Shown: in pieces, positions 46,550-64,000 of the stretch
Position numbering within the stretch: the first letter of the stretch is position 1
Layout of the letters: each line of letters begins with the position of its first letter
Source of the DNA: Pycnococcus provasolii
Lineage: Eukaryota > Chlorophyta > Pseudoscourfieldiophyceae > Pseudoscourfieldiales > Pycnococcaceae
DNA length: 64,000 nt
NCBI GenBank assembly: GCA_938743325.2
Contig: OW568888.1
Location: 535,170-599,169 of the forward strand
Direction: 5' to 3'
Translations under genes and position numbers: made by a program
Notes under the pieces: generated by a model
The model's database searches: none
The model's input: only the letters and a program-made list of their open reading frames with translations
What the model was told of the DNA's origin: nothing

Positions 46550-49500
46550 TGAGCGCATTATCACCTTAGTACCACCACGGAGCATGCCTGCATGCGGTAC
46601 CGTGTGCGTGGACGTCACAGGCTCAGGGCAACACCATTGCCCGGAGAATGTGACGCGCAGACGTGCGTAGTTGTGCCGCCGGTAACGCGCCGCAGCCCCT
46701 TTGACGCAAAAAGTCTTGCAAAAAACCATGCCATAGATTTCTCGGGGTATGAGCGCATTATCACTCCAGTACCACCACGGAGCATGCGGTACCGTGTGCG
46801 TGGACGTCACAGGCTCAGGGCAACACCATTGCCCGGAGAATGTGGCGCGCCGACGTGCGTAGTTGTGCCGCCGATAACGCGCCGCAGCCCCTTTGACGCA
46901 AAAAGTCTTGCAAAAAACCATACGATAGATTTCTCGGGGTCTGAGCTCGTTTGCACGCCCGCACGGCTGTGTCGCGTACGGTACCGTGTGCGTGGACGTC
47001 ACAGGCTCAGGGCAACACCATTGCCCGGAGAATGTGACGCGCCGACGTGCGTAGTTGTGCCCTCGATAACGCGCCGCAGCCCCTTTGACGCAAAAAGTCT
47101 TGCAAAAAACCATGCCATAGATTTCTCGGGGTATGAGCGTATTATCACTCCAGTACCACCACGGAGCATGCGGTACCGTGTGCGTGGACGTCACAGGCTC
47201 AGGGCAACACCATTGACCGGAGAATGTGACGCGCCGACGTGCGTAGTTGTGCCGCCGATAACGCGCCGCAGCCCCTTTGACGCAAAAAGTCTTGCAAAAA
47301 ACCATACGATAGATTTCTCGGGGTCTGAGCTCGTTTGCACGCCCGCACGGCTGTGTCGCGTACGGTACCGTGTGCGTGGACGTCACAGGCTCAGGGCAAC
47401 ACCATTGCCCGGAGAATGTGACGCGCCGACGTGCGTAGTTGTGCCGCCGATAACGCGCCGCAGCCCCTTTGACGCAAAAAGTCTTGCAAAAAACCATACG
47501 ATAGATTTCTCGGGGTCTGAGCTCGTTTGCACGCCCGCACGGCTGTGTCGCGTACGGTACCGTGTGCGTGGACGTCACAGGCTCAGGGCAACACCATTGC
47601 CCGGAGAATGTGACGCGCCGACGTGCGTAGTTGTGCCGCCGATAACGCGCCGCAGCCCCTTTGACGCAAAAAGTCTTGCAAAAAACCATACGATAGATTT
47701 CTCGGGGTCTGAGCTCGTTTGCACGCCCGCACGGCTGTGTCGCGTACGGTACCGTGTGCGTGGACGTCACAGGCTCAGGGCAACACCATTGCCCGGAGAA
47801 TGTGACGCGCCGACGTGCGTAGTTGTGCCCTCGATAACGCGCCGCAGCCCCTTTGACGCAAAAAGTCTTGCAAAAAACCATACATACGATAGATTTCTCG
47901 GGGTATGAGCTCGTTTGCACGCCCGCACGGCTGTGTCGCGTACGGTACCGTGTGCGTGGACGTCACAGGCTCAGGGCAACACCATTGCCCGGAGAATGTG
48001 GCGCGCCGACGTGCGTAGTTGTGCCGCCGGTAACGCGCCGCAGCCCCTTTGACGCAAAAAGTCTTGCAAAAAACCATACGATAGATTTCTCGGGGTATGA
48101 GCGCATTATCACTCCAGTACCACCACGGAGCATGCGGTACCGTGTGCGTGGACGTCACAGGCTCAGGGCAACACCATTGCCCGGAGAATGTGGCGCGCCG
48201 ACGTGCGTAGTTGTGCCGCCGATAACGCGCCGCAGCCCCTTTGACGCAAAAAGTCTTGCAAAAAACCATACGATAGATTTCTCGGGGTCTGAGCTCGTTT
48301 GCACGCCCGCACGGCTGTGTCGCGTACGGTACCGTGTGCGTGGACGTCACAGGCTCAGGGCAACACCATTGCCCGGAGAATGTGACGCGCCGACGTGCGT
48401 AGTTGTGCCCTCGATAACGCGCCGCAGCCCCTTTGACGCAAAAAGTCTTGCAAAAAACCATACGATAGATTTCTCGGGGTCTGAGCTCGTTTGCACGCCC
48501 GCACGGCTGTGTCGCGTACGGTACCGTGTGCGTGGACGTCACAGGCTCAGGGCAACACCATTGCCCGGAGAATGTGGCGCGCCGACGTGCGTAGTTGTGC
48601 CGCCGGTAACGCGCCGCAGCCCCTTTGACGCAAAAAGTCTTGCAAAAAACCATACGATAGATTTCTCGGGGTATGAGCGCATTATCACTCCAGTACCACC
48701 ACGGAGCATGCGGTACCGTGTGCGTGGACGTCACAGGCTCAGGGCAACACCATTGCCCGGAGAATGTGACGCGCCGACGTGCGTAGTTGTGCCGCCGATA
48801 ACGCGCCGCAGCCCCTTTGACGCAAAAAGTCTTGCAAAAAACCATACATACGATAGATTTCTCGGGGTATGAGCTCGTTTGCACGCCCGCACGGCTGTGT
48901 CGCGTACGGTACCGTGTGCGTGGACGTCACAGGCTCAGGGCAACACCATTGCCCGGAGAATGTGACGCGCCGACGTGCGTAGTTGTACCCTCGATAACGC
49001 GCCGCAGCCCCTTTGACGCAAAAAGTCTTGCAAAAAACCATGCCATAGATTTCTCGGGGTATGAGCGTATTATCACTCCAGTACCACCACGGAGCATGCG
49101 GTACCGTGTGCGTGGACGTCACAGGCTCAGGGCAACACCATTGACCGGAGAATGTGACGCGCCGACGTGCGTAGTTGTGCCGCCGATAACGCGCCGCAGC
49201 CCCTTTGACGCAAAAAGTTTTGCAAAAAACCATACGATAGATTTCTCGGGGTCTGAGCTCGTTTGCACGCCCGCACGGCTGTGTCGCGTACGGTACCGTG
49301 TGCGTGGACGTCACAGGCTCAGGGCAACACCATTGCCCGGAGAATGTGACGCGCCGACGTGCGTAGTTGTGCCGCCGATAACGCGCCGCAGCCCCTTTGA
49401 CGCAAAAAGTCTTGCAAAAAACCATACGATAGATTTCTCGGGGTCTGAGCTCGTTTGCACGCCCGCACGGCTGTGTCGCGCACGGTACCGTGTGCGTGGA

Positions 49501-52500
49501 CGTCACAGGCTCAGGGCAACACCATTGCCCGGAGAATGTGACGCGCCGACGTGCGTAGTTGTGCCGCCGATAACGCGCCGCAGCCCCTTTGACGCAAAAA
49601 GTCTTGCAAAAAACCATACGATAGATTTCTCGGGGTCTGAGCTCGTTTGCACGCCCGCACGGCTGTGTCGCGTACGGTACCGTGTGCGTGGACGTCACAG
49701 GCTCAGGGCAACACCATTGCCCGGAGAATGTGACGCGCCGACGTGCGTAGTTGTGCCGCCGATAACGCGCCGCAGCCCCTTTGACGCAAAAAGTCTTGCA
49801 AAAAACCATACGATAGATTTCTCGGGGTCTGAGCTCGTTTGCACGCCCGCACGGCTGTGTCGCGCACGGTACCGTGTGCGTGGACGTCACAGGCTCAGGG
49901 CAACACCATTGCCCGGAGAATGTGACGCGCCGACGTGCGTAGTTGTGCCCTCGATAACGCGCCGCAGCCCCTTTGACGCAAAAAGTCTTGCAAAAAACCA
50001 CACATACGATAGATTTCTCGGGGTCTGAGCTCGTTTGCACGCCCGCACGGCTGTGTCGCGTACGGTACCGTGTGCGTGGACGTCACAGGCTCAGGGCAAC
50101 ACCATTGCCCGGAGAATGTGACGCGCCGACGTGCGTAGTTGTGCCGCCGATAACGCGCCGCAGCCCCTTTGACGCAAAAAGTCTTGCAAAAAACCATACA
50201 TACGATAGATTTCTCGGGGTATGAGCGCATTATCACTCCAGTACCACCACGGAGCATGCGGTACCGTGTGCGTGGACGTCACAGGCTCAGGGCAACACCA
50301 TTGCCCGGAGAATGTGACGCGCCGACGTGCGTAGTTGTGCCGCCGATAACGCGCCGCAGCCCCTTTGACGCAAAAAGTCTTGCAAAAAACCATACGATAG
50401 ATTTCTCGGGGTCTGAGCTCGTTTGCACGCCCGCACGGCTGTGTCGCGCACGGTACCGTGTGCGTGGACGTCACAGGCTCAGGGCAACACCATTGCCCGG
50501 AGAATGTGACGCGCCGACGTGCGTAGTTGTGCCCTCGATAACGCGCCGCAGCCCCTTTGACGCAAAAAGTCTTGCAAAAAACCACACATACGATAGATTT
50601 CTCGGGGTATGAGCGCATTATCACTCCAGTACCACCACGGAGCATGCGGTACCGTGTGCGTGGACGTCACAGGCTCAGGGCAACACCATTGCCCGGAGAA
50701 TGTGACGCGCCGACGTGCGTAGTTGTGCCGCCGATAACGCGCCGCAGCCCCTTTGACGCAAAAAGTCTTGCAAAAAACCATACGATAGATTTCTCGGGGT
50801 ATGAGCTCGTTTGCACGCCCGCACGGCTGTGTCGCGTACGGTACCGTGTGCGTGGACGTCACAGGCTCAGGGCAACACCATTGCCCGGAGAATGTGACAC
50901 GCCGACGTGCGTAGTTGTGCCCTCGATAACGCGCCGCAGCCCCTTTGACGCAAAAAGTCTTACAAAAAACCATGCCATAGATTTCTCGGGGTATGAGCGC
51001 ATTATCACTCCAGTACCACCACGGAGCATGCGGTACCTTGTGCGTGGACGTCACAGGCTCAGGGCAACACCATTGCCCGGAGAATGTGACGCGCCGACGT
51101 GCGTAGTTGTGCCGCCGATAACGCGCCGCAGCCCCTTTGACGCAAAAAGTCTTGCAAAAAACCATACGATAGATTTCTCGGGGTCTGAGCTCGTTTGCAC
51201 GCCCGCACGGCTGTGTCGCGTACGGTACCGTGTGCGTGGACGTCACAGGCTCAGGGCAACACCATTGCCCGGAGAATGTGACGCGCCGACGTGCGTAGTT
51301 GTGCCCTCGATAACGCGCCGCAGCCCCTTTGACGCAAAAAGTCTTGCAAAAAACCACACATACGATAGATTTCTCGGGGTATGAGCGCATTATCACTCCA
51401 GTACCACCACGGAGCATGCGGTACCGTGTGCGTGGACGTCACAGGCTCAGGGCAACACCATTGCCCGGAGAATGTGACGCGCCGACGTGCGTAGTTGTGC
51501 CGCCAATAACGCGCCGCAGCCCCTTTGACGCAAAAAGTCTTGCAAAAAACCATACGATAGATTTCTCGGGGTATGAGCTCGTTTGCACGCCCGCACGGCT
51601 GTGTCGCGTACGGTACCGTGTGCGTGGACGTCACAGGCTCAGGGCAACACCATTGCCCGGAGAATGTGACGCGCCGACGTGCGTAGTTGTGCCCTCGATA
51701 ACGCGCCGCAGCCCCTTTGACGCAAAAAGTCTTACAAAAAACCATGCCATAGATTTCTCGGGGTATGAGCGCATTATCACTCCAGTACCACCACGGAGCA
51801 TGCGGTACCTTGTGCGTGGACGTCACAGGCTCAGGGCAACACCATTGCCCGGAGAATGTGACGCGCCGACGTGCGTAGTTGTGCCGCCGATAACGCGCCG
51901 CAGCCCCTTTGACGCAAAAAGTCTTGCAAAAAACCATACGATAGATTTCTCGGGGTCTGAGCTCGTTTGCACGCCCGCACGGCTGTGTCGCGTACGGTAC
52001 CGTGTGCGTGGACGTCACAGGCTCAGGGCAACACCATTGCCCGGAGAATGTGACGCGCCGACGTGCGTAGTTGTGCCCTCGATAACGCGCCGCAGCCCCT
52101 TTGACGCAAAAAGTCTTGCAAAAAACCATGCCATAGATTTCTCGGGGTATGAGCGTATTATCACTCCAGTACCACCACGGAGCATGCGGTACCGTGTGCG
52201 TGGACGTCACAGGCTCAGGGCAACACCATTGCCCGGAGAATGTGACGCGCCGACGTGCGTAGTTGTGCCGCCGATAACGCGCCGCAGCCCCTTTGACGCA
52301 AAAAGTCTTGCAAAAAACCATACGATAGATTTCTCGGGGTATGAGCTCGTTTGCACGCCCGCACGGCTGTGTCGCGTACGGTACCGTGTGCGTGGACGTC
52401 ACAGGCTCAGGGCAACACCATTGCCCGGAGAATGTGACGCGCCGACGTGCGTAGTTGTGCCGCCGATAACGCGCCGCAGCCCCTTTGACGCAAAAAGTCT

Positions 52501-55500
52501 TGCAAAAAACCATACGATAGATTTCTCGGGGTCTGAGCTCGTTTGCACGCCCGCACGGCTGTGTCGCGCACGGTACCGTGTGCGTGGACGTCACAGGCTC
52601 AGGGCAACACCATTGCCCGGAGAATGTGACGCGCCGACGTGCGTAGTTGTGCCCTCGATAACGCGCCGCAGCCCCTTTGACGCAAAAAGTCTTGCAAAAA
52701 ACCACACATACGATAGATTTCTCGGGGTCTGAGCTCGTTTGCACGCCCGCACGGCTGTGTCGCGTACGGTACCGTGTGCGTGGACGTCACAGGCTCAGGG
52801 CAACACCATTGCCCGGAGAATGTGACGCGCCGACGTGCGTAGTTGTGCCGCCGATAACGCGCCGCAGCCCCTTTGACGCAAAAAGTCTTGCAAAAAACCA
52901 TACGATAGATTTCTCGGGGTCTGAGCTCGTTTGCACGCCCGCACGGCTGTGTCGCGTACGGTACCGTGTGCGTGGACGTCACAGGCTCAGGGCAACACCA
53001 TTGCCCGGAGAATGTGACGCGCCGACGTGCGTAGTTGTGCCCTCGATAACGCGCCGCAGCCCCTTTGACGCAAAAAGTCTTGCAAAAAACCATGCCATAG
53101 ATTTCTCGGGGTATGAGCGTATTATCACTCCAGTACCACCACGGAGCATGCGGTACCGTGTGCGTGGACGTCACAGGCTCAGGGCAACACCATTGACCGG
53201 AGAATGTGACGCGCCGACGTGCGTAGTTGTGCCGCCGATAACGCGCCGCAGCCCCTTTGACGCAAAAAGTCTTGCAAAAAACCATACGATAGATTTCTCG
53301 GGGTCTGAGCTCGTTTGCACGCCCGCACGGCTGTGTCGCGTACGGTACCGTGTGCGTGGACGTCACAGGCTCAGGGCAACACCATTGCCCGGAGAATGTG
53401 ACGCGCCGACGTGCGTAGTTGTGCCCTCGATAACGCGCCGCAGCCCCTTTGACGCAAAAAGTCTTGCAAAAAACCATACGATAGATTTCTCGGGGTCTGA
53501 GCTCGTTTGCACGCCCGCACGGCTGTGTCGCGCACGGTACCGTGTGCGTGGACGTCACAGGCTCAGGGCAACACCATTGCCCGGAGAATGTGACGCGCCG
53601 ACGTGCGTAGTTGTGCCGCCGATAACGCGCCGCAGCCCCTTTGACGCAAAAAGTCTTGCAAAAAACCATACGATAGATTTCTCGGGGTCTGAGCTCGTTT
53701 GCACGCCCGCACGGCTGTGTCGCGTACGGTACCGTGTGCGTGGACGTCACAGGCTCAGGGCAACACCATTGCCCGGAGAATGTGACGCGCCGACGTGCGT
53801 AGTTGTGCCGCCGATAATGCGCCGCAGCCCCTTTGACGCAAAAAGTCTTGCAAAAAACCATACGATAGATTTCTCGGGGTCTGAGCTCGTTTGCACGCCC
53901 GCACGGCTGTGTCGCGTACGGTACCGTGTGCGTGGACGTCACAGGCTCAGGGCAACACCATTGCCCGGAGAATGTGACGCGCCGACGTGCGTAGTTGTGC
54001 CGCCGATAACGCGCCGCAGCCCCTTTGACGCAAAAAGTCTTGCAAAAAACCATACGATAGATTTCTCGGGGTCTGAGCTCGTTTGCACGCCCGCACGGCT
54101 GTGTCGCGCACGGTACCGTGTGCGTGGACGTCACAGGCTCAGGGCAACACCATTGCCCGGAGAATGTGACGCGCCGACGTGCGTAGTTGTGCCGCCGATA
54201 ACGCGCCGCAGCCCCTTTGACGCAAAAAGTCTTGCAAAAAACCATACGATAGATTTCTCGGGGTCTGAGCTCGTTTGCACGCCCGCACGGCTGTGTCGCG
54301 TACGGTACCGTGTGCGTGGACGTCACAGGCTCAGGGCAACACCATTGCCCGGAGAATGTGACGCGCCGACGTGCGTAGTTGTGCCGCCGATAACGCGCCG
54401 CAGCCCCTTTGACGCAAAAAGTCTTGCAAAAAACCATACGATAGATTTCTCGGGGTCTGAGCTCGTTTGCACGCCCGCACGGCTGTGTCGCGCACGGTAC
54501 CGTGTGCGTGGACGTCACAGGCTCAGGGCAACACCATTGCCCGGAGAATGTGACGCGCCGACGTGCGTAGTTGTGCCCTCGATAACGCGCCGCAGCCCCT
54601 TTGACGCAAAAAGTCTTGCAAAAAACCACACATACGATAGATTTCTCGGGGTCTGAGCTCGTTTGCACGCCCGCACGGCTGTGTCGCGTACGGTACCGTG
54701 TGCGTGGACGTCACAGGCTCAGGGCAACACCATTGCCCGGAGAATGTGACGCGCCGACGTGCGTAGTTGTGCCGCCGATAACGCGCCGCAGCCCCTTTGA
54801 CGCAAAAAGTCTTGCAAAAAACCATACATACGATAGATTTCTCGGGGTATGAGCGCATTATCACTCCAGTACCACCACGGAGCATGCGGTACCGTGTGCG
54901 TGGACGTCACAGGCTCAGGGCAACACCATTGCCCGGAGAATGTGACGCGCCGACGTGCGTAGTTGTGCCGCCGATAACGCGCCGCAGCCCCTTTGACGCA
55001 AAAAGTCTTGCAAAAAACCATACGATAGATTTCTCGGGGTATGAGCTCGTTTGCACGCCCGCACGGCTGTGTCGCGTACGGTACCGTGTGCGTGGACGTC
55101 ACAGGCTCAGGGCAACACCATTGCCCGGAGAATGTGACGCGCCGACGTGCGTAGTTGTGCCGCCGATAACGCGCCGCAGCCCCTTTGACGCAAAAAGTCT
55201 TGCAAAAAACCATACGATAGATTTCTCGGGGTCTGAGCTCGTTTGCACGCCCGCACGGCTGTGTCGCGTACGGTACCGTGTGCGTGGACGTCACAGGCTC
55301 AGGGCAACACCATTGCCCGGAGAATGTGACGCGCCGACGTGCGTAGTTGTGCCACCGGTAACGCGCCGCAGCCCCTTTGACGCAAAAAGTCTTGCAAAAA
55401 ACCATGCCATAGATTTCTCGGGGTATGAGCGCATTATCACTCCAGTACCACCACGGAGCATGCGGTACCGTGTGCGTGGACGTCACAGGCTCAGGGCAAC

Positions 55501-56793
55501 ACCATTGCCCGGAGAATGTGACGCGCAGACGTGCGTAGTTGTGCCGCCGGTAACGCGCCGCAGCCCCTTTGACGCAAAAAGTCTTGCAAAAAAACATACG
55601 ATAGATTTCTCGGGGTATGAGCTCGTTTGCACGCCCGCACGGCTGTGTCGCGTACGGTACCGTGTGCGTGGACGTCACAGGCTCAGGGCAACACCATTGA
55701 CCGGAGAATGTGACGCGCCGACGTGCGTAGTTGTGCCGCCGATAACGCGCCGCAGCCCCTTTGACGCAAAAAGTCTTGCAAAAAACCATACGATAGATTT
55801 CTCGGGGTCTGAGCTCGTTTGCACGCCCGCACGGCTGTGTCGCGTACGGTACCGTGTGCGTGGACGTCACAGGCTCAGGGCAACACCATTGCCCGGAGAA
55901 TGTGACGCGCCGACGTGCGTAGTTGTGCCGCCGATAACGCGCCGCAGCCCCTTTGACGCAAAAAGTCTTGCAAAAAACCATACGATAGATTTCTCGGGGT
56001 ATGAGCTCGTTTGCACGCCCGCACGGCTGTGTCGCGTACGGTACCGTGTGCGTGGACGTCACAGGCTCAGGGCAACACCATTGCCCGGAGAATGTGACGC
56101 GCCGACGTGCGTAGTTGTGCCCTCGATAACGCGCCGCAGCCCCTTTGACGCAAAAAGTCTTGCAAAAAACCATGCCATAGATTTCTCGGGGTCTGAGCTC
56201 GTTTGCACGCCCGCACGGCTGTGTCGCGTACGGTACCGTGTGCGTGGACGTCACAGGCTCAGGGCAACACCATTGCCCGGAGAATGTGACGCGCCGACGT
56301 GCGTAGTTGTGCCGCCGATAACGCGCCGCAGCCCCTTTGACGCAAAAAGTCTTGCAAAAAACCATACGATAGATTTCTCGGGGTCTGAGCTCGTTTGCAC
56401 GCCCGCACGGCTGTGTCGCGTACGGTACCGTGTGCGTGGACGTCACAGGCTCAGGGCAACACCATTGCCCGGAGAATGTGACGCGCAGACGTGCGTAGTT
56501 GTGCCGCCGGTAACGCGCCGCAGCCCCTTTGACGCAAAAAGTCTTGCAAAAAAACATACGATAGATTTCTCGGGGTATGAGCTCGTTTGCACGCCCGCAC
56601 GGCTGTGTCGCGTACGGTACCGTGTGCGTGGACGTCACAGGCTCAGGGCAACACCATTGCCCGGAGAATGTGACGCGCCGACGTGCGTAGTTGTGCCGCC
56701 GGTAACGCGCCACAGCCCCTTTGACGCAAAAAGTCTTGCAAAAAACCATACGATAGATTTCTCGGGGTATGAGCTCGTTTGCACGCCCGCACG
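46550..56793. repeat. Satellite array, 192-bp monomers (about 53 copies)
   Basis: The motif CCTTTGACGCAAAAAGTC first occurs at 46698 and last at 56718. The spacing fits 52 intervals of 192 bp plus nine 4-bp insertions (units with CATACATACGAT). Most of the monomer is near-invariant; a segment of about 46 bp is one of two alternatives, A (GAGCGCATTATCACTCCAG...) or B (GAGCTCGTTTGCACGCCCG...), both the same length. Because 192 is a multiple of three and stop-free in a frame on each strand, long open frames run through both strands; the 4-bp insertions break them. Four-monomer blocks at 50557-51328 and 51329-52100 are nearly identical, so higher-order repeats exist. The monomer is near nucleosome-repeat length, as in many centromeric or subtelomeric satellites. 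Confidence 0.95.
56788..56793. repeat. Target-site duplication, left copy (CGCACG)
   Basis: Satellite bases immediately left of the terminal inverted repeat; the same hexamer follows the right terminus at 62112-62117. The uninterrupted monomer has it once. Confidence 0.85.
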
Positions 56794-56816
56794 TCTACTT
56801 CTTCGACAGCGGCCTC
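56794..56816 (+). repeat. Left terminal inverted repeat (23 bp)
   Basis: Begins TCTACTTCTTCGACAGC and is the exact reverse complement of 62089-62111. It does not start with CACTA, so it is not a canonical CACTA terminus. Confidence 0.9.
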
Positions 56817-57080
56817 ACGCGGGCGCGGCGTACTTCCAGAAGCCGCGTGAGGCCGCGTGAGGCCGCAAGAGGCCGCGTGAGGCCTCACGCGGCCTCACGC
56901 GGGGTCTGTGGCCGCGTGAGGCCTCTAGAGGGGTCTGAGGGGTCCCTCTCCATCGGGTATCCCCTCTGACCCTTGGAGGGGTCTGAGGCCTCTTGGGGCC
57001 TCGTGGGGCCTCACGCGGCCGTTTACGGCCCCACGAGGCCCCACGCGGCCCCTTGAGGGCCCATGGGGACCCATGTTAGC
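56811..57080. repeat. Left subterminal GC-rich repeats
   Basis: A dense series of GAGGCCGCGTGAGGC / GCCTCACGCGGCCTC motifs in both orientations, decaying into GGGGCCTC-type units. Repeated subterminal motifs next to the terminal repeats are typical of CACTA-class elements, where they bind element-encoded proteins. Binding here is inference. Confidence 0.7.
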
Positions 57081-57214
57081 CGCCTTTCGCGTTGACCTCT
57101 TTCCCTCCTCAACTTGAAACGCGTCAACACAGACACGTCCGAGTAGGCCGGGGCCGGCCTCGTCTTAACGGAGCTCGCCTTCACTCCTCATTCTTGACGT
57201 TGCGTGGACCTTGC
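57081..57214. other. Left internal spacer of the transposon
   Basis: Short unique sequence between the subterminal repeats and the 51-bp minisatellite. Possible promoter region; no motif is strong enough to name. Confidence 0.4.
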
Positions 57215-57716
57215 AGTGGACAGCAAGTGCACGAACATCGACGTGCCAGCAGTGACCTTGCAGTGACAAGACAGTGACAAGCAAGTGCACGAACATCGAC
57301 GTGCCAGCAGTGACCTTGCAGTGACAAGACAGCAAGTGCACGAACATCGACGTGCCAGCAGTGACCTTGCAGTGACAAGACAGCAAGTGCACGAACATCG
57401 ACGTGCCAGCAGTGACCTTGCAGTGACAAGACAGCAAGTGCACGAACATCGACGTGCCAGCAGTGACCTTGCAGTGACAAGACAGCAAGTGCACGAACAT
57501 CGACGTGCCAGCAGTGACCTTGCAGTGACAAGACAGCAAGTGCACGAACATCGACGTGCCAGCAGTGACCTTGCAGTGACAAGACAGCAAGTGCACGAAC
57601 ATCGACGTGCCAGCAGTGACCTTGCAGTGACAAGACAGTGACAAGCAAGTGCACGAACATCGACGTGCCAGCAGTGACCTTGCAGTGACAAGACAGTGAC
57701 AAGCAAGTGCACGAAC
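57215..57716. repeat. 51-bp minisatellite (about nine units) inside the transposon
   Basis: The unit contains AGTGCACGAACATCGACGTG and CCAGCAGTGACCTTGCAGTG. Most units are 51 bp; the first and last ones are 60 bp with an extra GTGACAAGA-type insertion. It lies immediately upstream of the first transposon gene. Because 51 is a multiple of three, spurious frames run through it on both strands. It may be a promoter-proximal or transposase-binding array. Confidence 0.85.
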
Positions 57717-57759
57717 AGGACCTGGAGGTGGGCGTGGTTCCGTTTATCCTTCTCGTGGT

Positions 57760-58890
57760 GTGCAATACGGAAACGCTGCTGCTAACGCTCGGAACGCTGC
57801 TGCTAACGCGCACGGCGCTACTTTTCATCATACAAACCGTGCGAACCAGAACAATAACACAGCATTAGCAATCGTCCCCGGAGGTGTACAGCTCGACGGT
57901 ACTGGCGCCGGTGCCGGTGGCAACTCGAACTTCGGTGGTTCTGTGAACGGCGACATACGAGCAAGGGGGGGCACGAAGAACGATAAGAACACGAACTCTC
58001 TTATTCTCGCGAATAAACTTTTTTTCATTGTCGCTGAGCAAATCGTGCAAGGCAAGTGCTCGCTATTCCCAAATAAAGACGTGTACCGCGATTGTTTACC
58101 ACAGGCTTTCGTGAAGGCAGCATTCACTTCTAACGAGTTAGAAGACGATTATACGTTAGATACTGAAATCATAGTGACGACACTGAAACGAAACTCTTCA
58201 GACGAATTAAAGACGGACAGCAAGAGGGAGACTATTTATTTGCACGCTACAAACAAAGTCACACTTTTCCGGAGCGGATTGTACATGCACGTTGGCGAGG
58301 CAGCGAAGACGCACGTACTAGAAAAGAGACCTGGACTCTGGAAGAATATATCGGAATTAAAGGGCGAGGCGTACAGGGCAGAATTGCGTGATTGGCGAAC
58401 AAATCAAGAGTTGCACCGGGCTTGCCTGCGACACTTCTCCACGCATTGTACAAAAGTCCGCCAGATCCAAGTTTCTGACTTCTACGAAAACAGATCATAC
58501 GAAAGTTCCGACGGAAGCAAAAGAGCATACACAAAGATTCCCGAAGGAATCGTTCAGGTGATTGCACTAAAACTGTACATGGACGCGAGGGAAGTCGTGT
58601 TGGCAACGTTCGGTGTAGATCTTGATAAGAAGAGAGAGCTTCTTCGTGGTGTTCAGTTAGACTTTAGCTTACTTTTTCAAGCTGACCCAGGTGAAGGGAA
58701 ACGATACGTGCGAGTTCTGAAGGAGGAAACGCCAATCGAGGACTGTGCGAATAAGAAGGAGTGGGAACAGTTGAATACACTTGACGGTAAGGGTGGTTTC
58801 ATTCCACTATCCGCATTGGACGATACCGGCACCGTCTTGGCCGGAGTCGACTCTGATCCGCCATCGCCAGATTTGGTTGGGCGACGTTAA
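57760..58890 (+). CDS. Transposon ORF1: unrecognised protein (about 376 codons)
   Basis: This is the first gene of the element. The N-terminus is Asn/Ala/Gly-rich and low-complexity ('NAAANARNAAANAHGATFHH'); from about residue 75 the sequence looks globular ('NSLILANKLFFIVAEQIVQG', 'CSLFPNKDVYRDCLPQAFVK', 'VTLFRSGLYMHVGEAAKTHV', 'KLYMDAREVVLATFGVDLD'). I do not recognise a family. No ATG lies near the start: the frame opens at GTG 57760 and the next ATG is about 175 codons in, so an upstream exon or a non-ATG start is likely. It ends 11 bp before ORF2. Position and codon use suggest a second protein of the transposition machinery, comparable in place, not in visible sequence, to the DNA-binding partner of CACTA elements. 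Confidence 0.7.
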   Translation: MQYGNAAANARNAAANAHGATFHHTNRANQNNNTALAIVPGGVQLDGTGAGAGGNSNFGGSVNGDIRARGGTKNDKNTNSLILANKLFFIVAEQIVQGKCSLFPNKDVYRDCLPQAFVKAAFTSNELEDDYTLDTEIIVTTLKRNSSDELKTDSKRETIYLHATNKVTLFRSGLYMHVGEAAKTHVLEKRPGLWKNISELKGEAYRAELRDWRTNQELHRACLRHFSTHCTKVRQIQVSDFYENRSYESSDGSKRAYTKIPEGIVQVIALKLYMDAREVVLATFGVDLDKKRELLRGVQLDFSLLFQADPGEGKRYVRVLKEETPIEDCANKKEWEQLNTLDGKGGFIPLSALDDTGTVLAGVDSDPPSPDLVGRR

Positions 58891-58901
58891 GGGGGTCACA
58901 T

Positions 58902-60998
58902 ATGCCAGGTGTTGGGGGAAGACTCGGAGGTACTACTGGGAGGGCGGATGAAAATATTTCGGAATTCACTTCGCGACAGTCGCCGGATCTGATGGTTGCA
59001 CGTGACAACGATGGCGGTGATGTACATTATGCAGGGAATGTTCATCATGGTGGCGGCGACGACGACGACTTTAACGATGAAGCGGGCATTCTCTTTGGAT
59101 TCGAGGAGGACAGCGAAGTCGACGACGACGACGAAGCAGAAGATGGCGACGACGTTGACGTAGGCGAAGGTGACTTACACGGTGGTAGGAATAATGTGGA
59201 ATGGGACTCCGACGGTGACATGGAGGACAAAGAAGAAGATGAAGACAGTGAATGGTCGACGGACGCATTGGCGGCGGTTCTGGCGAGTCAACCGTACAGA
59301 GTTATCGACGATGTTCTCAAAGTCATCAAAGACAAGCGTTTCAACGCGCATTCGGTGAAGCTTAGAAGAGCGGCTGATGTGACAGCGTATATAAGAGCTG
59401 CTTCTGAGAAGATGATTAACGTGGACGCACGGTTGAAAGCCGAGGAGATGTGCATCGGTTCTCATGAAGTGTTGAGGGCGTACTCTTCAGAGTTGAAGTC
59501 TTCGTGCAGTCTTCGGTGCAGAACGACTTTGTTGAGAGAAATGATAACAGAGTACATGAGCGAAATGCAATGGAAAAGGTATTCGGAACCTGGAAAACAT
59601 TCGGGAGATCTTGTCGATGGAACTTGGTATGGAAAAGTCGTGCAAAGGGCGAAGCACAGGGTCGTGGCTTTGCACATCGCGCAGGACAGCACAATATTGA
59701 ATGTTAGAGGCACGCGTAAGTGTGTTCCCGTGCACGTTTGTGTTGCGAACATGCCAGTGAAAATGAAGATGAAGCGTAGTTCGTGGAAACTTGTTGGCTA
59801 CATCCCAGATGTAGAAGACGTCATGGACGATCTGCTAGCACAAACGAAAGTAACCGTGAAGCTAGATGAAGACGGGGCTATGTTGAGAACAGCAATCGTG
59901 AATGCACTTATGCAAGGCGTGTGGAAAGAAGTAATTGCCCAAGCAGATGACTTCAGAGTTGACGAGAATGTGTTCTCGTTGAGACTGGCACCAATGGCTG
60001 TGGACAAGGTGGAAGCGTGGAGGGTTGCTTGCGTGAAACACATGACGTGCATTCTGTGCACGGAAACGAATCTAGGTTTGGTGAGACCAAGTAATCCAAC
60101 GAATTGGAGAAGGGCCGATGCGTTCAGTGCGAGTACAAGTGCTAATGTAGGAGACGCGAGTATTCGGCAAGGAATGACGCCCGCGTTATCAGCGTGGCCC
60201 GACGCGAACGTGTACGAGGTGTGCGCGGCAATGGATACGCTACACAACGACCACGTCGGAGAGTGCCGGCATTTGTTGAAAAGGATTTTCGGTGACAAGA
60301 AGGGCTCTAAGTCTTTGTTTTTACACCGACTTCAGCAACAAGACGTGGCGGCGGCAAACGTCGGAAGTCCTTCCATGGGTGCATCACAAGGAACGCACGG
60401 AACGCAAGCAACACAAGGAACGCAGAAATCGGCGCGCCGTGCGGGGAGGAAGAACAAGAAGGAGAAGGTACTGAGCGCGAAGTGCGTCGCAGAAATGGTT
60501 CGACGACATGTGAATAACACGATCATGAAGCAAGCGTCATTTCCAGGGTGTAGGGCGCCGTCAAGAGCGCTAGACTCTGAAAAGTTTACGGGCGATGAGT
60601 ACTGGGCTTTGGTAAGACGCACGCCGTGTGGAATAGCCTCCTTATGCATGGAGTCGAGCACGCCTTGGGCAAGTGCCCCGAGAAGGGCGAAGTGCGTTCG
60701 GCAGACTTGTGTGGAGGTAATGGGAGTGGTGACGAAGTATTTGCGCATGATGGACAAGCGGAAGATGTTGGCGTTCACGGATTTAGATCTCACGCAGTTG
60801 AGGAGGAGGACCACAGAGTACATGAATGCTGTGCAGAGCTTGTTTTCGCACGTGTCTTGGTCTCATCCGAAATTTCACGCGTTAAGTCACTTCGCGGATT
60901 ACATGGCAAAGTATGGGTCGTGCAGAAATTTTGACACGCAAATGTCTGAAGGTATAATGGAGGGAAGTGTGCACGCGAAGATGAAACTTGTGAACTAA
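58902..60998 (+). CDS. Transposon ORF2: Plavaka/CACTA-like transposase, catalytic part
   Basis: The 698-residue protein begins with a very acidic region (about 45-125). The middle resembles the core of Plavaka-type transposases: 'HSGDLVDGTWYGKV' (about 234), 'VVALHIAQDSTILNVRGTRK' (about 253, with a probable catalytic Asp in AQDS), then 'CVPVHVCVANMPVKMK' and 'SWKLVGYIPDVED'. In the family this reads as a V-ILASDKT--- block followed by YPVYLTIGN and LLGYIPV. The end 'SHPKFHALSHFADYMAKYGS' matches the conserved C-terminal helix block (PKFHxLxHYxxxIxxxG). A Gly/Thr/Gln insert near 490-510 is low-complexity. The frame ends where the family protein would continue, so the C-terminal domain is on ORF3. 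Assignment rests on eye-level motif comparison. Confidence 0.75.
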   Translation: MPGVGGRLGGTTGRADENISEFTSRQSPDLMVARDNDGGDVHYAGNVHHGGGDDDDFNDEAGILFGFEEDSEVDDDDEAEDGDDVDVGEGDLHGGRNNVEWDSDGDMEDKEEDEDSEWSTDALAAVLASQPYRVIDDVLKVIKDKRFNAHSVKLRRAADVTAYIRAASEKMINVDARLKAEEMCIGSHEVLRAYSSELKSSCSLRCRTTLLREMITEYMSEMQWKRYSEPGKHSGDLVDGTWYGKVVQRAKHRVVALHIAQDSTILNVRGTRKCVPVHVCVANMPVKMKMKRSSWKLVGYIPDVEDVMDDLLAQTKVTVKLDEDGAMLRTAIVNALMQGVWKEVIAQADDFRVDENVFSLRLAPMAVDKVEAWRVACVKHMTCILCTETNLGLVRPSNPTNWRRADAFSASTSANVGDASIRQGMTPALSAWPDANVYEVCAAMDTLHNDHVGECRHLLKRIFGDKKGSKSLFLHRLQQQDVAAANVGSPSMGASQGTHGTQATQGTQKSARRAGRKNKKEKVLSAKCVAEMVRRHVNNTIMKQASFPGCRAPSRALDSEKFTGDEYWALVRRTPCGIASLCMESSTPWASAPRRAKCVRQTCVEVMGVVTKYLRMMDKRKMLAFTDLDLTQLRRRTTEYMNAVQSLFSHVSWSHPKFHALSHFADYMAKYGSCRNFDTQMSEGIMEGSVHAKMKLVN

Positions 60999-61029
60999 CA
61001 CGGAAAAACACGATACAGGCATTCACACG

Positions 61030-61830
61030 ATGGACACAAAGCCGCACGGCAAGCGAATAAGGAGTACGCAAGGAAATCTTGTGCGAAGCATGGGGGATTG
61101 GCAGAACAGGCAAGAAGGAACGTCCGAATTGCGTGCGACGTGCGAAATGAAAGGTGTTGGAAAGAAGCGTGAGAGGGACCCTGATGGTTTGCGTAATGTG
61201 CTTCAAGGAGTGATATACAAGAGCCTGAGGTCTGATGTCTTGTTGAATGTGTTGAAAGGAATGGACGGCACGTTGGGAATGGAATACATCGAAGACAAGC
61301 TACGAACGTACTTGCGCGAAGAACAGGTGGATATGAAGGATATGAAGTACAGCGTGTATAGAACTGCCGAAGTATATCGTGGTGTGGACGACGAAGGCGG
61401 GAATGCCGAGGTGGTGCAGTTTGTGAGAGCAACAGAATCTTTTCGCGGGGAAGAACGAAGGGATTTCTGCGTCGTGAAGGGGAACGCAAGAAAAGGAAGA
61501 TGGGCAGGCAGAGAAACGGAATGGCACGCAAAGGCACTGGTGTTCTTGACAGCGAGTGGTTACCAGAAGGGGAATTTCGAAAAGCGAGTGACGTTTGACA
61601 TGGTGTATGTGAGGTGGCTCAGGAAGGTATCCGACGAGTGGTTCAACAAGCTAGGTGAAGACAAGCAAGAAGTCATGAAACACTTCAAAGGGGCAACATT
61701 CACGTTTATGACTGGGGAAGAGGCATACGATGTGATTACAACACAGGCACTCGAGAAGAGGGCTCCGTTGGAGAATGTGAACAAAGATGGGCAAGGAGTA
61801 TTTGTGAATAACGAGTACGTGGAAATGTAA
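61030..61830 (+). CDS. Transposon ORF3: C-terminal domain of the transposase in a separate frame
   Basis: The 266-codon frame begins 31 bp after the ORF2 stop. Residues about 125-200 ('VQFVRATESFRGEERRDFCV', 'WHAKALVFLTASG', 'VTFDMVYVRWLRK') and the last residues ('QGVFVNNEYVEM') match the terminal domain of Plavaka/CACTA transposases, usually fused to the catalytic part (VRC-xSFR-GxxRxDxV, WYAxLLxxF, AxVRWF, FFVN). Here it lies in another frame. A short intron, programmed frameshifting or an old indel could explain the split. Codon use is the same as in ORF1 and ORF2. Confidence 0.7.
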   Translation: MDTKPHGKRIRSTQGNLVRSMGDWQNRQEGTSELRATCEMKGVGKKRERDPDGLRNVLQGVIYKSLRSDVLLNVLKGMDGTLGMEYIEDKLRTYLREEQVDMKDMKYSVYRTAEVYRGVDDEGGNAEVVQFVRATESFRGEERRDFCVVKGNARKGRWAGRETEWHAKALVFLTASGYQKGNFEKRVTFDMVYVRWLRKVSDEWFNKLGEDKQEVMKHFKGATFTFMTGEEAYDVITTQALEKRAPLENVNKDGQGVFVNNEYVEM

Positions 61831-61865
61831 GAAGGTGGCGTGTAACACCAATTGGGCAACCAACC

Positions 61866-62088
61866 CCCCAGCTCCGACCCCTCCGGAGGCCTCAGGAGGC
61901 CTCAAGACCCCTCCGGACCCCTCAGGAGGCCTCAGGAGGCCTCAGACCCCTCAGACCCCTCCGGAGGCCTCCGGAGGCCTCCGGAGGCCTCAGACCCCTC
62001 CGGAGGCCTCAGGAGGCCTCAGGAGGCCTCGCCAAAAGCGCGGCCTCCGGAGGCCTCCGGAGGGGTCTGCGGCCTCCGGAGGCCTCCG
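61866..62088. repeat. Right subterminal GC-rich repeats
   Basis: Tandem CCTCCGGAGGCCTC / CAGGAGGCCTC / CAGACCCCTCCGGAGG motifs run almost without break to the right terminal repeat. They share the GAGGCC core with the left subterminal block but not its CACGCGG part, so the two ends are asymmetric. Confidence 0.75.
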
Positions 62089-62111
62089 GAGGCCGCTGTC
62101 GAAGAAGTAGA
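62089..62111 (-). repeat. Right terminal inverted repeat (23 bp)
   Basis: Exact reverse complement of 56794-56816, followed directly by the hexamer CGCACG (62112-62117) and resumed satellite. Confidence 0.9.
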
Positions 62112-62645
62112 CGCACGGCTTTGTCGCGTACGGTACCGTGTGCGTGGACGTCACAGGCTCAGGGCAACACCATTGCCCGGAGAATGTGACGCGCCGACGT
62201 GCGTAGTTGTGCCGCCGGTAACGCGCCGCAGCCCCTTTGACGCAAAAAGTCTTGCAAAAAACCATACGATAGATTTCTCGGGGTATGAGCTCGTTTGCAC
62301 GCCCGCACGGCTGTGTCGCGTACGGTACCGTGTGCGTGGACGTCACAGGCTCAGGGAAACACCATTGCCCGGAGAATGTGACGCGCCGACGTGCGTAGTT
62401 GTGCCGCCGGTAACGCGCCGCAGCCCCTTTGACGCAAAAAGTCTTGCAAAAAACCATACGATAGATTTCTCGGGGTATGAGCTCGTTTGCACGCCCGCAC
62501 GGCTTTGTCGCGTACGGTACCGTGTGCGTGGACGTCACAGGCTCAGGGCAACACCATTGCCCGGAGAATGTGACGCGCCGACGTGCGTAGTTGTGCCGCC
62601 GGTAACGCGCCACAGCCCCTTTGACGCAAAAAGTCTTGTGAAAAA
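62112..62645. repeat. Satellite array, right remnant (about three monomers)
   Basis: The satellite resumes with the B-type segment (GGCTTTGTCGCGTACGGTACC, a local T variant of GCTGTGTCGCG) and runs for nearly three 192-bp monomers. It ends mid-unit at CTTGTGAAAAACCACC, where a new GT-rich sequence starts. Confidence 0.9.
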
Positions 62646-62650
62646 CCACC

Positions 62651-63630: not shown

Positions 63631-63835
63631 TAGGGTTAGGGTTAGGGTTGCGGGTTAGGGGTTAGGGTTAGGGTTAGGGTTAGGGTTAGGGTTAGGGTTA
63701 GGGTTAGGGTTAGGGTTAGGGTTAGGGTTAGGGTTAGGGTTAGGGTTAGGGTTAGGGTTAGGGTTAGGGTTAGGGTTAGGGTTAGGGTTAGGGTTAGGGT
63801 TAGGGTTAGGGTTAGGGTTAGGGTTATGGTTACGG
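63631..63835 (+). repeat. TTAGGG telomere-type tract (about 30 units), internal
   Basis: The plus strand reads (TTAGGG)n with a few variants at the left edge (TTGCGGG, TTAGGGG) and at the right edge (TTATGG, TTACGGG). Orientation is that of a right-hand chromosome end, but about 165 bp of non-telomeric sequence follows, so in this assembly the tract is interstitial. Confidence 0.95.
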
Positions 63836-64000
63836 GTGCCAGTTTCCCTTTTCCCCTGCTTTCCGCATTCGCTCGCTTGTGCGTGCTTGCCTGCTCACTT
63901 GCTTGCTACGAAGTACGTAAGTTTTGATGTCGCTCTTCGTGGATCGCGTCGTCGTCGTCGTCGTCGTCGTCCTCGGGTGATGATCAGAGGAGGACGAGGT
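63836..64000. other. Non-telomeric flank with GTC trinucleotide run
   Basis: Unique sequence with CTTGC-rich part, then (GTC)8-9 at about 63946-63971 and AGGAGGACGAGG at the window edge. It could be the edge of the next gene; nothing can be assigned. Confidence 0.6.

Follow-up and report, generated by a model that had tools for sequence, protein, structure and literature searches.

Near one end of a contig lies a segment of some 5.3 kb, bounded by perfect inverted repeats and containing three open reading frames (ORF1 to ORF3). Is it a complete transposon, and if so, of which kind, where do its ends lie, and how many bases does it duplicate on insertion? We studied it in a window of 64,000 nucleotides (C28:535170-599169) at the end of the 599169-base contig C28, in a genome of 32.3 Mb in 46 contigs; positions without a contig name refer to this window. 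A first-pass annotation, made from the letters alone, had described an intact Plavaka/CACTA-like element inserted in an algal-type satellite. In our analysis it is very probably a cut-and-paste DNA transposon of the broad CACTA/EnSpm-Transib assemblage that encodes a DDE transposase of the Plavaka type and is potentially autonomous. Parts of the earlier description hold, while its boundaries and its target-site duplication had to be revised.

Ends of the element and target-site duplication

The element had been delimited by 23-bp terminal inverted repeats beginning with TCTAC (TCTACTTCTTCGACAGCGGCCTC) and by a 6-bp duplication, CGCACG. Such repeats are indeed present at 56794 and, inverted, at 62111, with CGCACG flanking both sides. 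The full length of the perfect inverted repeat, however, is 25 bp (CGTCTACTTCTTCGACAGCGGCCTC), not 23 bp. When the genome was searched with 20 bp of this repeat, 40 sites with at most 3 mismatches were obtained, 22 of which had 0 or 1. Since the reversed pattern, used as a control, gave 28 sites, those with 3 mismatches are mostly chance matches; the only one inspected among the 18 of them, C16:731147, is a left end, 91% identical and with the CG present. All 22 sites with at most 1 mismatch were inspected, and at 21 of them CG directly precedes TCTAC, the sole exception being C10:707473, which reads CTGCTAC. Because these termini carry the CG in flanks that, judged by eye, are unrelated over the 25 bp beyond it, the CG most likely belongs to the terminus, and the ends, which read CGTCTAC, lie 2 bases further out than first placed. 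These comparisons demonstrate both the ends of the element and the presence of copies in the genome, and the element remains complete within its extended boundaries (Table 1).

If the element is taken to end at CG, its flanks read ...GCCCGCA / CACGGCTTTG..., so that CA is doubled and CGCACG decomposes as CG+CA+CG. As the annotation had stated, the setting is a satellite, whose 192-bp units lie on both sides of the element. The sequence GCACGCCCG is present in 40 of the ∼56 satellite units and continues in all 40 as CACGGCT, with one CA; the next bases are GTGTC in 39 units and TTGTC, as in the right flank, in 1. The insertion site is a satellite unit with CA doubled, and all 40 units contain the unfilled sequence, which demonstrates insertion at the 192-bp satellite and the restored unit for the window site.

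Two further copies in the genome retain both ends. One, on C32 (251818-253015; 1.2 kb), has the flanks CCA/CAC, that is, CA/CA, and no 6-bp match (ACCACG on the left, CGCACG on the right), and the other, on C13 (160463-160802; 340 bp), has CA/TA, with the six bases AACACG and CGTATT. At the window site, a model with 23-bp ends starting at TCTAC and a 6-bp CGCACG duplication does as well as one with a 2-bp duplication, since deleting one CGCACG also restores the satellite unit; yet it is contradicted by the six bases flanking the C32 and C13 copies and by the CG ahead of TCTAC in unrelated flanks, and we consider it extremely improbable. Slightly less improbable, but still very much so, is a model in which the ends begin with TCTAC and insertion always takes place at CG, duplicating these 2 bases. 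It accounts for the CG at nearly all termini, the CA/TA mismatch on C13 included, but needs a pre-insertion sequence GCCCGCACGCACGGCT, whereas GCCCGCACGGCT is the sequence in every one of the 40 satellite units that have this context. The comparisons thus support a 2-bp rather than a 6-bp duplication, with the CG as part of the element; the 2-bp duplication is found in 2 of the 3 two-ended copies, the window element included. No empty site was found in the genome for the C32 copy at up to 3 mismatches, nor for the C13 copy with an exact match and a variable gap.

A Plavaka-type transposase encoded by a probably spliced gene

In keeping with the first-pass label, ORF2 matches the Plavaka profile of Pfam (PF18759) at 42.1 bits, above its cut-off of 26.3, with an E value of 8.4e-11 and over profile positions 71-323 of 325, and no other transposase family is listed for this frame. 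We therefore assign to ORF2 a Plavaka domain. No CACTA transposase model is listed among the Pfam matches up to an E value of 10, a range in which the HMMER filters drop most matches above ∼0.1, and no TET/JBP dioxygenase match is listed for any of the three frames up to the same value. ORF1 has one Pfam match (E value, 0.028), under its cut-off, and ORF3 has none.

The three open frames lie where they had been annotated, each of them open alone, but they are probably exons of one spliced transposase gene of ∼1,300 residues. This gene model draws its main support from the junction of ORF2 and ORF3. ORF2 ends in a stop codon right after FDTQMSEGIMEGSVHAKMKLVN, and a GT-AG intron with CTAAC ahead of its acceptor (intron 2 in Table 1) links the two frames in phase. 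Two diverged relatives of the transposase in the same genome bear on this junction: the one on C20 (L016) is uninterrupted there (WDTQTSENLHTVVKRVGRRLKSTKNLVGEM), and the one on C44 (L015) reads WDTQTAENLHTVV and then diverges. Against the C20 peptide, the join made by intron 2 scores 135, the top of 49 joins (the GT-AG pairs within the range searched that leave the reading frame uninterrupted), with 121 for the next and 99 for unspliced ORF2, and the joined protein, SEGIHT...GKRIRSTQGNLV, aligns with SENLHT...GRRLKSTKNLV of this relative. Against the C44 peptide, the same join scores 110 and the unspliced frame 96; since they share 262 bp at 99% identity, the two relatives are not independent. 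These scores support the predicted joining of ORF2 to ORF3. A similar intron (GTAAGT..ACAG) can be recognized, on inspection by eye, in one light-harvesting gene of the same genome. The candidate intron 1, which would join ORF1 to ORF2, is 1 of 120 possible joins and is weaker than the join of ORF2 to ORF3; the sole other match to ORF1 in the genome is a piece of the same element on C17.

That the frames might be separate genes, for example for a DNA-binding protein, a transposase and a third protein, is suggested by each being open on its own and by the capacity of CACTA elements to make two proteins. For ORF2 and ORF3, this is countered by the position of the ORF2 stop codon within splice and branch signals and by the rise in the C20 score when ORF3 is joined; ORF1 might still form a gene of its own. 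Overall, separate genes seem unlikely, and we retain the single spliced gene as the probable arrangement.

In the joined protein, we could recognize a set of catalytic residues, assigned by motif and by eye rather than by structure or family alignment: a first D in AQDST (∼59685), a second D in MAVDKVEAW (∼60003), C(2)C in CILC (60048-60059), H(3)H in HALSH (60876-60890) and E in SEGIHT (60948-60950). The support for intron 2 extends to this motif set in the predicted spliced product. Relatives of ORF2 were absent among the 7,992 candidates of the protein collection sharing most words with it, as were relatives of residues 580-720 of the spliced protein among 72 candidates; the Protein Data Bank gave no match for ORF2, and 3 pattern matches in viral contigs were not confirmed. 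A single-sequence structure model of 530 residues had a mean predicted local distance difference test score (pLDDT) of 35.3, and no fold search was based on it.

Subterminal repeats

The annotation had also noted subterminal repeats, and these are present at both ends. Counts of the motif GGCCTC/GAGGCC are 14 for the left 274 bp and 27 for the right 244 bp, compared with 0 in 57700-61840 and 25 in window positions 1-46000. First-order Markov controls had means of 0.71 (left) and 1.69 (right), and 0 of 2,000 reached the observed counts, so the enrichment is not due to chance. The spacing from GGCC to GGCC is a multiple of 10 in 12 of 15 and 10 of 14 cases. CACTA elements carry subterminal repeat arrays, and transposase-binding repeats in CACTA-type elements usually sit subterminally; given this usual location, the GGCCTC repeats are putative transposase-binding sites. 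Between the left end and the gene lies a 51-bp minisatellite (Table 1), which does not appear in the listed matches of the C32 copy, where the left part ends at element position 57194.

Copies in the genome and state of the element

To gain an idea of the relatives of the element in its host genome, we listed up to 12 matches per locus, each of at least 60 bp, and set aside those among the subterminal repeats. Partial copies are 87 to 100% identical to the element in stretches. The matches listed include 98 to 100% identical stretches on C1, C6, C17, C32 and C37, among them fully identical ones of 281 bp on C37 and 201 bp on C1, and such near-identity suggests recent copying. The C32 and C13 copies have kept their ends and lost the middle; they resemble nonautonomous derivatives and may have been moved in trans. 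Transposase matches elsewhere in the genome number at least 7, all of them pieces, two of which (C44 and C20) are at 28 to 33% identity, and the Plavaka profile matched only the window element; these counts, like that of the full-length transposase, are lower bounds.

Several observations weigh against a complete, autonomous element with one spliced gene and a 2-bp duplication. The full-length transposase was found once in the genome, and no ATG lies in ORF1 between the stop codon before it and the GTG at 57760. Joining ORF2 to ORF3 leaves the Plavaka score unraised (41.2 versus 42.1 bits), because the match ends at ORF2 residue 460, well before the junction. Without protein relatives and with an unusable structure model, the catalytic motifs had to be assigned by eye. 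The C13 copy, 1 of the 3 with two ends, lacks a 2-bp duplication, and for 16 of the 22 termini no partner was seen in the genome-wide list or in the neighboring sequence, which was searched mostly over 1.5 kb in either direction and over more for C1, C10 and C17; far diverged ends would escape such a search. The single full-length transposase and the upstream exon without ATG would also fit a dead relic that is complete only by chance. We regard such a relic as rather improbable in view of the perfect 25-bp repeats, the clean duplication, the long open exons and the near-identical partial copies. The element may be active at present.

A potentially autonomous element of this kind would work as follows. 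One spliced gene would give rise to the transposase, and this protein would bind the 10-bp-phased GGCCTC repeats inside both ends, either itself or through a partner domain located upstream in it. The transposase would then pair the two 25-bp repeats and cut the element out, and joining to a target with a 2-bp stagger would generate the 2-bp duplication. In the window, insertion took place in a unit of the 192-bp subtelomeric satellite, with a probable duplication of CA, and shorter, ends-only copies could be mobilized in trans.

Other pieces of the element are scattered over the genome. Isolated internal pieces of 200 to 320 bp, 95 to 100% identical and with sharp borders, lie at C37:466812, C38:116846, C21:504637 and C1:633004; the genome-wide terminus list contains no terminus on C21, C37 or C38, and loci L011 and L012 have no inverted repeats. 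At C44:263765 (L076), a right end cut down to ∼30 bp is located among telomere-like repeats. The second, diverged Plavaka transposase fragment (L015:1268-2436 on C44; L016:1330-1880 on C20) lies between 176-bp inverted repeats, 99% complementary, on C44 and beside GGGAGCTCCC palindrome repeats on C20. These fragments may represent a sister family or a transposase fragment captured by other elements.

Relation to known transposons

With CACTA/EnSpm elements, the window element has its subterminal arrays in common. It further shares with them a short duplication and the same catalytic motifs, PMC12730594 giving for EnSpm, Transib and Plavaka alike a D, D, E set in which C(2)C and H(3-4)H separate the second D from E. 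It differs from the CACTA/EnSpm type described there (CAC..GTG ends and a 3-bp duplication) in that its ends do not start with CAC, its duplication is 2 bp, and no CACTA model is listed for it.

With fungal Plavaka elements, the window element shares the Plavaka transposase domain, the D, D, C(2)C, H(3)H, E motifs (as assigned by motif) and, in 2 of its 3 two-ended copies, a CA/CA duplication within the range of 2 or 3 bp (PMC12730594). The corrected duplication agrees with known Plavaka elements and removes the oddest part of the earlier description. The ends are different, CGT..ACG in place of TGT..ACA in PlavakaA, which has 2-bp duplications, and CGTCT..AGACG in place of CATCA..TGATG in PlavakaB, which has 2- or 3-bp duplications (PMC12730594). 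Differences also lie in the host, which is algal here, and, with respect to TET/JBP-carrying Plavaka elements, in the absence of a listed TET/JBP match from the three frames.

Plavaka-type elements are already known outside fungi. Potentially active EnSpm-Plavaka transposons, likewise of the Plavaka type, are reported from the green alga Auxenochlorella (PMC12633428; journal version, PMC12636532), and Plavaka transposases are reported from a protist, the animal relative Amoebidium, where they usually flank gene clusters of up to 50 kb, unlike the compact 5.3-kb element here (PMC11244446). Our literature search, which did not cover Repbase or most subscription papers, found no description of the ends or duplications of algal Plavaka elements, and the printed description in PMC12730594 is of fungal ones. 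The window element belongs to an ordinary kind of transposons of which little has been described in such a host, and its terminal sequence is unusual. For a Plavaka-type transposon outside fungi, it provides a gene model along with the ends and a duplication.

The G+C content at third codon positions is 0.43 to 0.58 in the element exons and 0.51 to 0.86 in 18 long ORFs of window positions 1-46600, some of them overlapping; from the lower values, the element is possibly of foreign origin. We tentatively propose, as a reading somewhat short of an even chance, a third Plavaka lineage, nonfungal and characterized by CGT..ACG ends, by subterminal repeats in 10-bp phase and by one spliced gene for a transposase of ∼1,300 residues. 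The same alga would have one or more diverged sister families of it (C20/C44), and the lineage may have been acquired from outside, given coding regions lower in G+C than most of the long host frames. The CGT..ACG ends and the sister fragments could help to tell whether Plavaka predates the divergence of fungi and green algae or has moved between them.

Genomic setting and feature coordinates

The algal host implied by the first-pass annotation agrees with the genes for light-harvesting proteins, the chlorophyll-binding family having 51 matches in the genome. When one of these was compared with solved structures, the best single-domain chains were chlorophyll a-b binding proteins of the Lhca2 type (217 bits); the multidomain LHCI chains of entry 9vfj had a higher total score, summed over several repeats. 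We take the matched Lhca-type antenna protein to be of the type of plants and green algae, and the host is likely an alga with green-type antennae.

Table 1. Features of the Plavaka-type element and its surroundings (window positions)
Feature	Position	Strand	Basis
Complete element, 5,322 bp, terminal CG counted on both sides	56792..62113	.	25-bp perfect inverted repeats; CG before TCTAC at 21/22 genomic termini
Left terminal inverted repeat, CGTCTACTTCTTCGACAGCGGCCTC	56792..56816	+	Perfect 25-bp repeat
Right terminal inverted repeat, 25/25 bp identical to left	62089..62113	-	Perfect 25-bp repeat
Target-site duplication CA, left copy	56790..56791	.	Single CA here in all 40 satellite units with GCACGCCCG
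Target-site duplication CA, right copy	62114..62115	.	Sequence and satellite comparison
Left subterminal repeats, GGCCTC motifs, spacing mostly 10 bp	56817..57065	.	Repeat analysis
51-bp minisatellite, 9.1 copies	57219..57696	+	Repeat analysis
ORF1, upstream frame, probable exon; start codon not found	57760..58786	+	Open frame and in-frame join
Candidate intron 1, GTAAGG...CCAG, 122 bp, would join ORF1 and ORF2 in frame	58787..58908	+	Inferred; 1 of 120 possible joins
ORF2, probable main transposase exon, Plavaka domain	58909..60951	+	Pfam match, motifs
Predicted intron 2, GTATAA...CTAAC...ACAG, 67 bp, contains ORF2 stop codon	60952..61018	+	Best of 49 in-frame joins versus uninterrupted relative
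ORF3, probable 3' exon, C-terminal transposase part and stop	61019..61830	+	Open frame, in-frame join
Right subterminal repeats, decamers CCTCCGGAGG (palindromic) and CCTCAGGAGG	61870..62088	.	Repeat analysis
192-bp subtelomeric satellite, left part, insertion target	46595..56791	.	Repeat analysis of window (array match 46595-56793)
192-bp subtelomeric satellite, right part	62114..62648	.	Repeat analysis of window (array match 62112-62648)

Beyond the satellite, a TTAGGG array occupies 63631-63837 and is followed by ∼160 bp of nontelomeric sequence up to the contig end at 64000; the array may be an internal telomere stretch, or the sequence beyond it an assembly tail.

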